Shown piece by piece: positions 61,327 through 63,917 of a DNA stretch of 64,000 bases. The position numbers and the translations under genes were made by a program. A model generated the notes under the pieces. That model ran no database searches, had not been told where the DNA came from, and saw nothing but the letters and a program-made list of their open reading frames with translations. The first letter of the stretch is position 1. Every line of letters starts with the position of its first letter. This DNA comes from an uncultured Pelagibacteraceae bacterium (GTDB lineage: Bacteria > Pseudomonadota > Alphaproteobacteria > Pelagibacterales > Pelagibacteraceae): positions 1 to 64,000 of the forward strand of contig CACGWQ010000006.1 of assembly GCA_902576815.1 (NCBI GenBank). Reading direction: 5' to 3'.

Positions 61327-61412
61327 TGGTGCCCTCGGCCAGACTCGAACTGGCACTCCCAAAAGGGCAAGGATTTTAAGTCCTTTGTGTCTACCAATTT
61401 CACCACGAGGGC
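61327..61412 (-). tRNA. tRNA-Leu (anticodon TAA)
   Basis: GCCCTCGTGGTGAAATTGGTAGACACAAAGGACTTAAAATCCTTGCCCTTTTGGGAGTGCCAGTTCGAGTCTGGCCGAGGGCACCA. Confidence 0.96.
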
Positions 61413-61479: not shown

Positions 61480-61516
61480 TTATTTTATCTCTCTGGTTTC
61501 TAGTTTGTTTCTAGTT
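61480..61516. repeat. flanking direct repeat, copy 1 (downstream of the alginate-lyase-like gene)
   Basis: TTATTTTATCTCTCTGGTTTCTAGTTTGTTTCTAGTT; about 32/37 identical to 63881-63917; contains two TTTCTAGTT units with 11-nt period. Confidence 0.65.
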
Positions 61517-61563
61517 ATCCTATAAAGTCCGATAACCCAGTATCACGATCCGAAAAAGTTTTT

Positions 61564-62697
61564 TCATTTTATACAATTAGCATTAAATCCAATTAGATTG
61601 TCTATGCCATACTTTGGTCTTTTGGCTAAATAAGTAATATCTTTTTCATGTTTTATTCCAGTTACCATTTCCATTAAGGTATCAATAGCTAAAGCCTCTT
61701 GATGTGTGTGCTTTCTAGCATTATGTTTTTTATATTGATTATTTTTTTGCTTACCATCGTATTTTCTTGAGGAGAAACTTTCATAATCAGTGATCCCTAA
61801 ATTTAATACTTCCGCTGCTTTAGTAATTCTATTCATAACTAGGTCTGGAACTTTAGCCCCCCAATTTTTAGCTAAATAGATGTATCCTAAAGCTGAATTT
61901 AAACCATAAGAGTGATACCATAAGGCTCGAAACCCTCTAAAAGAATTATTATTGATATAGCCATCATCATAAAACACTTCCTCTATATTTTTAAATCTAA
62001 AATTGAATTCTTTTGCTGCTAGTTTTTTATTGTTTGTCCAATGAGCATAAGCTAAGTTTGGAATTCCTCCGTTTCCCATCGCATAAAATCCTTTTTCTTT
62101 CTCTAAAAATTCTTCAGGCTTAATAAATTTTTTATGCATTTTTTTAATATACTTGTTAACAATTTTAATTTCTTTATCACTTAAGTAATCTTTAAGATAA
62201 ATTGCTATCAGCAAATAATTTGTAAAAGCATCCCTTGCAAATTCATATGCATGATACCAGCAAGGTGCTTCGGGATTTCCATCTTTCCAACATTTTGGTT
62301 TCTTTTTTAACTCTTCTTTACCGATTGTTTCTAGTAAAACATTTGCTTTAGCAATTTTAATCAATATTCCTTTAGCGGCATCAATGTCAGTTATATCATT
62401 ATCGCCAATTGCATTATGGGTAGCAACAGCAAACATGCTCATTGGACCAGTTAGATTTAAGTGATTTACACTTCTAGAATTTCCCAGCGCCCATTCACTC
62501 ATCCAATCTAAACGTATTAAGCTTTCAATTCTAGCTTTTTTATATTTAGATTTAAAAGTCTCACTACCCACATAAGAGCATGATTTAATCTTATCTGTAT
62601 AAAAATGTTTTGGAAAAGATATATCTTTAGATTTAACTTTTGCTTCAGCAGATAAACATAAAAATATGCTAAATAAAGTTAAAAGAATTTTTTTCAT
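61564..62697 (-). CDS. secreted alginate lyase-family (PL5-like) protein
   Basis: Signal peptide MKKILLTLFSIFLCLSAEA; alpha-helical toroid-type pattern with INNNSFRGFRALWYHSYGLNSALGYIYLA; four Cys consistent with periplasmic export. Family call is by resemblance only. Confidence 0.55.
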   Translation of the reverse strand: MKKILLTLFSIFLCLSAEAKVKSKDISFPKHFYTDKIKSCSYVGSETFKSKYKKARIESLIRLDWMSEWALGNSRSVNHLNLTGPMSMFAVATHNAIGDNDITDIDAAKGILIKIAKANVLLETIGKEELKKKPKCWKDGNPEAPCWYHAYEFARDAFTNYLLIAIYLKDYLSDKEIKIVNKYIKKMHKKFIKPEEFLEKEKGFYAMGNGGIPNLAYAHWTNNKKLAAKEFNFRFKNIEEVFYDDGYINNNSFRGFRALWYHSYGLNSALGYIYLAKNWGAKVPDLVMNRITKAAEVLNLGITDYESFSSRKYDGKQKNNQYKKHNARKHTHQEALAIDTLMEMVTGIKHEKDITYLAKRPKYGIDNLIGFNANCIK

Positions 62698-62700
62698 TTT

Positions 62701-63867
62701 TTATTGTTTGCCAACAATTAAAGGTTGATTAAGATTAATTTTAAAAAGTTTAGCTGCATTTTTATATGCAATCTTTTCTTGTACATCTGGGCTTAAAGAT
62801 CCAATCATCAAACGAACATGCTTCATATAGTGTTCAACAAAAACATCATGTGCTGGGCTTTTACCTAATTTATGATCAGAACCAAAAAAATATCTATCGG
62901 AATATTTTTCCATCGATTTTGCCCAAACCTCATGTAATTTAAATCTATAATCATTTGGGATATGCAAATCCTCAAAGCCCCAAAGAGAAGACCAATGAAA
63001 TGCTATTTTCCAGTCAGTATATGTATTAGGACAATAATCAAAAATTTCTTCAAGGTCTTTTGTTGGCATCATTCCTGTATGAGCTATCACAATTTTTGCG
63101 TTGGGGTATTTTTCACATTTTTTTTTATAAAAATTTTTAAACTCTGTTAATCTATCTATCCCATCTATTTCATGAAAAGGCTCCAGGTGTAAATTAATCG
63201 GCATACGGTGTTCATTGACAAATTTGAACGCCTTATCAATAATTGGGTTTTTAAGATCTAAATCTAATTGGGGTTGATACCCACCATAAGGGGGATTTTT
63301 TTTCTTTTTATTATAGTGAACCAGTCCAGCTTCTCCCAATCCATAACATTGTCCTTTTTTAAATCTTCTAATAGTTTCTTTAAACTCTTTATTAACTTCT
63401 GAGTTCTTATATTTTTTTTTATTTGCTGACATTCCAATAAAATTGGAATGACAATTAGTTAAAACATTCTGATGCTCTGCAGCAAAATCATAATAATAAT
63501 TCCAATTATCTTCTGATTTGTAAGTATTTGGAGTTCCCATAATTACAGACATAAAAACATTTGCCTTATTTGTTAACATTGGCAAATCTTCTATAAAATA
63601 CTCAGTACCTATATCTAAAGCTCTTCCGGTGGATTTTCTAGGATGTGCATGACCATCTATTATAGGTCCTAAATAAGGTTTATTTGTATCTCTTACCTCA
63701 AGATTATTAAGTTTATAACTGTCTAAAAGTTTTTTTGCTTCTTCACGACTTTCAGTTTTTCCAAACATAATTCTTTCATAAGCCCAGTGATCGAATCTAT
63801 AGTGTTCGTCAAAACTGTTGGCAAACGTTGGTAAAATTAAAAAAATAAAAAACAAAATTATTTTCAT
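62701..63867 (-). CDS. secreted amidohydrolase-family (Amidohydro_2-like) protein
   Basis: Signal peptide MKIILFFIFLILPTFANS; metal motif IIDGHAHPR, GLGEAGLVHY, INLHLEP, IVIAHTGMM, FGSDHKLG, NAAKLF. Confidence 0.75.
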   Translation of the reverse strand: MKIILFFIFLILPTFANSFDEHYRFDHWAYERIMFGKTESREEAKKLLDSYKLNNLEVRDTNKPYLGPIIDGHAHPRKSTGRALDIGTEYFIEDLPMLTNKANVFMSVIMGTPNTYKSEDNWNYYYDFAAEHQNVLTNCHSNFIGMSANKKKYKNSEVNKEFKETIRRFKKGQCYGLGEAGLVHYNKKKKNPPYGGYQPQLDLDLKNPIIDKAFKFVNEHRMPINLHLEPFHEIDGIDRLTEFKNFYKKKCEKYPNAKIVIAHTGMMPTKDLEEIFDYCPNTYTDWKIAFHWSSLWGFEDLHIPNDYRFKLHEVWAKSMEKYSDRYFFGSDHKLGKSPAHDVFVEHYMKHVRLMIGSLSPDVQEKIAYKNAAKLFKINLNQPLIVGKQ

Positions 63868-63880
63868 TATTAAAATTATA

Positions 63881-63917
63881 TTATTTCATCTCTTTAGTTT
63901 CTAGTTAATTTCTAGTT
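63881..63917. repeat. flanking direct repeat, copy 2 (upstream of the amidohydrolase gene)
   Basis: TTATTTCATCTCTTTAGTTTCTAGTTAATTTCTAGTT; about 32/37 identical to 61480-61516. Confidence 0.65.

Follow-up and report, generated by a model that had tools for sequence, protein, structure and literature searches.

Cargo-only integrative cassettes with matched end iterons in a probable tandem array at the tRNA-Leu(TAA) gene of Pelagibacteraceae

We analysed a stretch of 64,000 nucleotides (the window) from an uncultured Pelagibacteraceae bacterium, and found that the region around two secreted-protein genes near its right end is probably one of several cargo-only integrative cassettes that form a tandem array at the tRNA-Leu(TAA) gene of this SAR11 family. 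The tRNA-Leu(TAA) gene, which is the integration target, lies at 61327..61412 on the minus strand, as do all the cassette features given below, and according to ARAGORN and a search of its own genome it is the sole full copy in a 76%-complete assembly. The first 39 nt of this gene, its 5' half (61374..61412), form the left copy of the attachment (att) core, as deduced from the alignment of units from 23 genomes, and an exact second copy is found at C6:64040-64078, 40 bp outside the window, on the same contig (C6, which ends at 64,999). The positions of both half-sites delimit an integrated cassette of 2,666 bp, from 61378 to C6:64043, the last 43 bp being past the window. These borders are also backed by the same unit with the same borders in two other genomes (L128 and L150) and by empty sites. 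Cargo gene 1 (61564..62697) encodes a secreted protein of 377 aa with weak similarity to an alginate lyase profile, below its cut-off (E 2.6e-4, 19.9 bits against a cut-off of 429), and cargo gene 2 (62701..63867) encodes a secreted Amidohydro_2 protein of 388 aa (PF04909, E 2.2e-9, above cut-off). The stretch at 61534..61570 looks like the start of a secreted-protein gene, with a signal peptide of the MKK-LGIVVL type, and recurs in other arrays; it may be the remnant of such a gene start. This type of stretch was also seen at cassette ends in both the tRNA-Leu and the tRNA-Thr arrays of other genomes, and it may constitute a deletion or recombination hot spot.

A preliminary description of this DNA had proposed that two imperfect 37-bp direct repeats bracket the two genes. 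Both copies are confirmed at 61480..61516 and 63881..63917, where they have the same orientation, agree at 32/37 positions and each contain two TTTCTAGTT units with an 11-nt period. They bracket the cargo as inner boxes of both element ends and not as outer borders, since the left copy begins ~100 bp inward of the element border and the right one stops ~127 bp before the right border. The left box has a fixed position in the family and the right box was located by motif search and family position; their element-specific iteron pairs, at 61497-61516 and 63898-63917 respectively, have the same sequence, or key. Adjoining the right core there are three 10-bp AGTCT repeats (63987 to C6:64016) which, given their position, are possible excisionase sites. 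A search of the window for AACTAGAAANNAACTAGAAA gave exactly two perfect matches, compared with an expected mean of 0.68 even allowing up to 3 mismatches. The genome-wide check of the motif found exactly three perfect matches in the 1.02-Mb assembly, the third one at C6:64163-64182, 163 bp beyond the window end. As all of them are confined to this locus, a chance or dispersed motif was ruled out. Copies 1 and 3 of the box sit within a 198-bp direct repeat (92%) that includes part of the tRNA-Leu 5' half. In this sense, the earlier statement that this is not a classic tRNA-derived att pair was wrong, the crossover core being the 39-bp 5' half of tRNA-Leu(TAA), and the tRNA origin had been missed because the evidence lies beyond the window end. 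The 37-bp boxes are accessory, arm-type-like sites. The neighbouring unit (C6:64041-64376; 4042-4377 in L021) looks chimeric, in that its left end is that of a tRNA-Leu cassette and its right end, which terminates in a tRNA-Thr 3' half, is that of a tRNA-Thr element; an assembly error is possible.

Matches to the 198-bp unit were present in 61/81 genomes (counting its own genome, and with only the tRNA part matched in many distant ones), and genomes of the same genus often had several copies beside the NAD-kinase gene. A scan of public genomes anchored on NAD kinase retrieved Pelagibacteraceae genomes, mostly from single cells. Of the 69 Pelagibacteraceae loci whose sequence extends 5 kb or more to the right of the tRNA, 37 (about half) have at least one extra tRNA half-site and show the same architecture, and 14 have at least two. 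The shared layout consists of a tRNA half, an end box, cargo, an end box and a tRNA half, in tandem arrays of 1-3 cassettes with sizes mostly of 1-6 kb. In cassette-free genomes a single tRNA is directly joined to the same flank, which constitutes an empty site. For example, L123 aligns with L128 at 92-93% on both sides and the two cassettes of L128 are missing from it, and the pattern is likewise observed in L139 compared with L133 and L129, and in L127 compared with L132. The prediction that loci lacking the cassette keep exactly one copy of the repeat is borne out by the tRNA core; the 37-bp box, in contrast, is absent from empty sites.

Regarding the cassette of the window, the whole 2,666-bp unit is found in L128 and L150 at 99% identity, a lyase-only version of 1,495-1,496 bp in L129, L133 and L159, and a version with only the amidohydrolase region (1,537 bp) in L182, while the amidohydrolase also occurs within a composite unit of L135. 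The ends are near-identical across these versions, except for the left end of the L135 composite. In L182, the amidohydrolase-only version (cassette 1) is 99% identical yet read as two ORFs, and the gene may be broken in this host. No second amidohydrolase copy had been found in 80 relatives searched, a negative result that reflected sampling, given that the scan anchored on NAD kinase did find copies. The cargo of the window is 98-99% identical between hosts whose NAD-kinase DNA is 75-86% identical and whose left flank is 79-88% identical. Similarly, L148_2 and L173_2 share 98.8% identity in cargo versus 76% in the NAD-kinase region, and L174_1 and G064_1 99.8% versus 80%. Judged from these sequence comparisons, the cassettes have spread horizontally between hosts. 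A second array was observed between tRNA-Thr(TGT) and NAD kinase in L129, L132, L143, L146, L154, L168, L180, L186, L192 and others, whose elements are bounded by copies of the tRNA-Thr 3' half and have repeats with an 11-bp period close to each end. Within an element, the repeats of the two ends tend to agree. This array has the same layout as the tRNA-Leu array, which speaks in favour of the cassette reading.

The ends of the cassettes follow a fixed plan. A clear repeat pair with an 11-bp period is seen at both ends of 63 of the 73 units measuring 400 bp or more, against a background of 0.9% of random cassette-DNA windows that hold such a repeat. The iteron pairs are located 118.2 +- 0.6 bp past the core start and 149.2 +- 1.7 bp ahead of the next core, and a second repeat set of the AGTCT type, with three units at 10-bp spacing, lies ~27-57 bp from the right core. 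The key is alike at the two ends of a unit and variable between units (TTTCTAGT, CGTCTAGT, GTGCTGGT, GTACCAGT, ATCCGAGA and others). The end-to-end identity of keys has a mean of 0.89 within units and of 0.61 +- 0.019 when partners are shuffled, and 0/2000 shuffles reach 0.89; the shuffle was run on 46 distinct key pairs, some of them related by descent, hence it gives no strict probability. The suggestion that the repeats are remnants of a duplication, in the simple form of a duplicated 37-bp box, is rejected, as matched but different boxes recur in 63 units. On the other hand, the suggestion of a boundary or recombination motif for cassette exchange gains support: dozens of exchangeable cassettes have the motif pair at either end, at fixed distances from the crossover core, and divergent hosts share the same cassette.

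Another explanation would see the cassettes as dead elements, derived by deletion from satellites or prophages, that homologous recombination between tRNA halves and conserved ends, rather than an integrase, spreads and reshuffles. The composite and partly deleted versions are in line with it, and so are the few units with unlike keys at their two ends (L199_1 and G067_1) and the lack of an integrase in any unit. We consider it unlikely, as both end boxes are intact and at fixed positions in 63/73 units, units 98-99% identical reside in hosts with only 75-88% core identity, and the empty sites are precise.

Cassettes mostly contain 1-6 genes. Counting ORFs of 80 aa or longer, the cargo amounts to 151 in 98 families, and 137 of these lie on one strand and read from the right end towards the tRNA. 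Among the functions recognised are type I restriction-modification, GmrSD- and Mrr-type restriction proteins, a Schlafen-group helicase, a polysaccharide lyase, a trypsin-like protease, parts of ABC transporters and a GIY-YIG/NUMOD endonuclease. Cassette 1 of L176 has a single ORF above this length threshold, which encodes a GIY-YIG/NUMOD homing-endonuclease-like protein. Neither a search with a satellite integrase nor the cargo ORF families revealed an integrase in any array unit, the window cassette included, and matches to PF00589 in its own genome are on another contig and not at the array. An integrase encoded inside the cassette was thus ruled out.

A search of viral contigs with the tRNA core led to L202 (IMGVR_UViG_3300025897_001356), a circle of 7,700 bp with a 99-bp terminal repeat from a viral collection, which encodes a divergent tyrosine integrase beside the core, an AEP primase/helicase and a RusA-like protein, and is probably a complete 7.7-kb circular SAR11 satellite. 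In L202 the integrase gene overlaps the right iterons, which lie within its first codons. Two SAR11 genomes carry a related element at tRNA-Leu, of 8.8 kb in L227 and of 7.8 kb in L228, with a cassette-like att layout and matched keys. The key of L227 is GTGCTGGT, and the left end of L228 carries GTTTCTAGTTTGTTTCTAGTT, which equals the left iterons of the window, though the spacer from core to box has diverged. These integrases are rare: a profile search matched 9/399 genomes of the genus, far fewer than the cassette carriers, and a search with a single query found relatives in 6/300 genomes. Cargo-only cassettes, that of the window included, were not found in the viral contigs searched. The exact tRNA-Leu half core was also present in other IMG/VR contigs (L203-L206, L208-L210, L212, L215 and L217) with different flanks and no detectable iteron pair, which may be phages that share the site via another integrase.

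A comparison of eight integrases relates the key to the N-terminal domain (N-domain) of the enzyme. L202 and L218 have the same key, and their integrases show 97, 95 and 93% identity in the N-domain, the core-binding part and the catalytic part, respectively. With a key difference of a single base, N-domain identity falls to 77% (L202 vs L211; the rest at 96/94%) or 53% (L213 vs L235; the rest at 94/99%). Furthermore, L214 and L228 have similar keys, with 77% identity in the N-domain and 49% in the core-binding part, and L214 and L202 have different keys, with 87% in the core-binding part and 45% in the N-domain. In the near-identical pairs the DNA from core to iteron is still 88-95% identical, indicating that the att region was not swapped as a block. 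The rank correlation with the key is 0.85 for the N-domain and 0.83 for the catalytic part, and it is the near-isogenic pairs, not the rank correlation alone, that tell the domains apart. Because key and N-domain change together while the catalytic part stays steady, we read the iterons as sites bound by the integrase N-domain, and conclude that they are putative arm-type sites. N-domains may also evolve faster in general. The AlphaFold model of the integrase is of low confidence and predicts a three-stranded sheet plus a helix for the N-domain. No significant PDB sequence or fold match was obtained for the integrase or its N-domain; weak, non-significant fold matches of the N-domain include the arm-domain structures 3jtz, 3rmp and 3ju0.

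Iterons could have other functions. One of them would be as operators of a transcription regulator acting on cargo and tRNA promoters, instead of integrase sites. PhoB-type regulators use 11-bp direct repeats, and the placement of the boxes is suggestive: the right box is just upstream of the first cargo gene to be read, followed by AGAGATAAAAT and a TATAAT-like sequence, and the left box is upstream of tRNA-Leu. However, the same key pair flanks the core in the integrase-bearing satellites, with the right pair of L202 within integrase codons, the key changes along with the N-domain, and no regulator gene accompanies the annotated cassettes. A purely regulatory function is thus very unlikely, and operator and integrase-site roles could coexist. 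The other would be as replication or packaging sites that recruit the replication initiator of a helper, considering that 11-bp direct repeats resemble replication iterons and that satellites encode a primase/helicase. This is the least probable of the readings and hardly credible, as two copies flank the att core rather than form one origin cluster, the primases of L211 (88.6%) and L218 (89.3%) are about equally similar to that of L202 and only L218 shares its key, and again it is the integrase N-domain that follows the key.

We therefore return to the iterons as arm-type sites, for which the following model may be proposed on the basis of sequence data. The attachment site of a cassette would be the tRNA 5' half, with the crossover core near the anticodon loop, the same element-specific 11-bp iteron pair on both flanks and three AGTCT repeats on one side. 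The cassette would be excised as a circle, with right box, AGTCT repeats, core and left box following one another as in a lambda-type attP. Upon recombination of the circle in the tRNA core, the resident tRNA 5' half and upstream region would be exchanged for the incoming ones, so the tRNA would stay intact and the att core available. Insertion could be repeated because the core is kept, giving rise to an array. Rare satellites integrated at this tRNA would provide the integrase in trans; the N-terminal domain of the enzyme would read the iterons and its C-terminal domain would cut the tRNA core. The iteron sequence would be the address that dictates which integrase can move which cassette, and an integrase-less cassette would depend, for its mobilisation in trans, on a satellite whose integrase reads its key. 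In this sense, we lean, with some reserve, towards SAR11 having an open, integron-like exchange port at tRNA-Leu and a second one at tRNA-Thr, where a diverse pool of integrase-less cassettes circulates with duplicated arm-site addresses, each usable only by integrases with the matching N-domain, and where satellites and cargo undergo a lock-and-key diversification.

Several known systems resemble parts of this array. Additive flexible genomic islands with direct repeats of tRNA fragments were described in Ca. Actinomarinales (PMC7771536), and in Ca. Methylopumilus tRNA-fragment repeats lie at cassette ends at tRNA-Lys (PMC10872708). According to the passages compared, cassettes pile up beside a tRNA in these islands and every insertion leaves a partial tRNA copy. 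In agreement, the SAR11 locus has cassettes at a tRNA, partial-tRNA repeats at the junctions, gain and loss of whole cassettes, and empty sites. It differs in that the 5' half is copied here and in the matched, cassette-specific end iterons, an end code that goes unmentioned in those passages. Tycheposons and VEIMEs are marine tRNA-integrating satellites with host-useful cargo and ties to virus particles, as presented in papers that cite them (PMC10803314, PMC11389934). Compared through these citing papers, L202, L227 and L228, which have their own tyrosine recombinase and a primase, look like elements of this kind, whereas neither a recombinase nor a replication gene is present in the window cassette or the other cargo units, which are also much smaller (mostly 1-6 kb). 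The array is also reminiscent of integrons, with tandem, mostly co-oriented small cassettes that each have a recombination site and would depend on a tyrosine recombinase encoded elsewhere. Integrons use a folded attC; the junction here consists of a tRNA half with direct repeats as putative double-stranded arms, and insertion takes place at a tRNA gene. Since no integron integrase (IntI beside attI) was found at the array, we do not classify it as an integron despite its similar way of working. With lambda-type attP it shares a core between two arms with close direct repeats, arm-type repeats being found on both sides of the core, and an extra repeat set on one arm. Like the integrases compared here, lambda-type (heterobivalent) integrases have separate N-terminal, core-binding and catalytic parts, with arm domains of the P4 type represented by 3jtz and 3rmp. 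The differences are that here the arm sequence diversifies among elements with one core and that integrase-less elements retain the arms. No account of integrase-less cassettes with matched, diversifying end keys was found in the literature searched, which was mainly open-access and covered tycheposons and VEIMEs through papers that cite them. Arrays of tRNA half-sites and marine satellites were already known; what appears to be new are cargo-only cassettes whose arm-site code is matched at both ends and diversifies.

The acquisition of defence systems, secreted enzymes and transporters has been poorly explained so far. The tRNA-Leu locus offers a testable route, by which single genes or small operons would cross between distant lineages as standard addressed cassettes. 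How arm-site specificity evolves could be revealed by natural integrase pairs whose main difference is in the presumed DNA-reading domain. Furthermore, if the model is true, sequence alone could predict which satellite moves which cassette.
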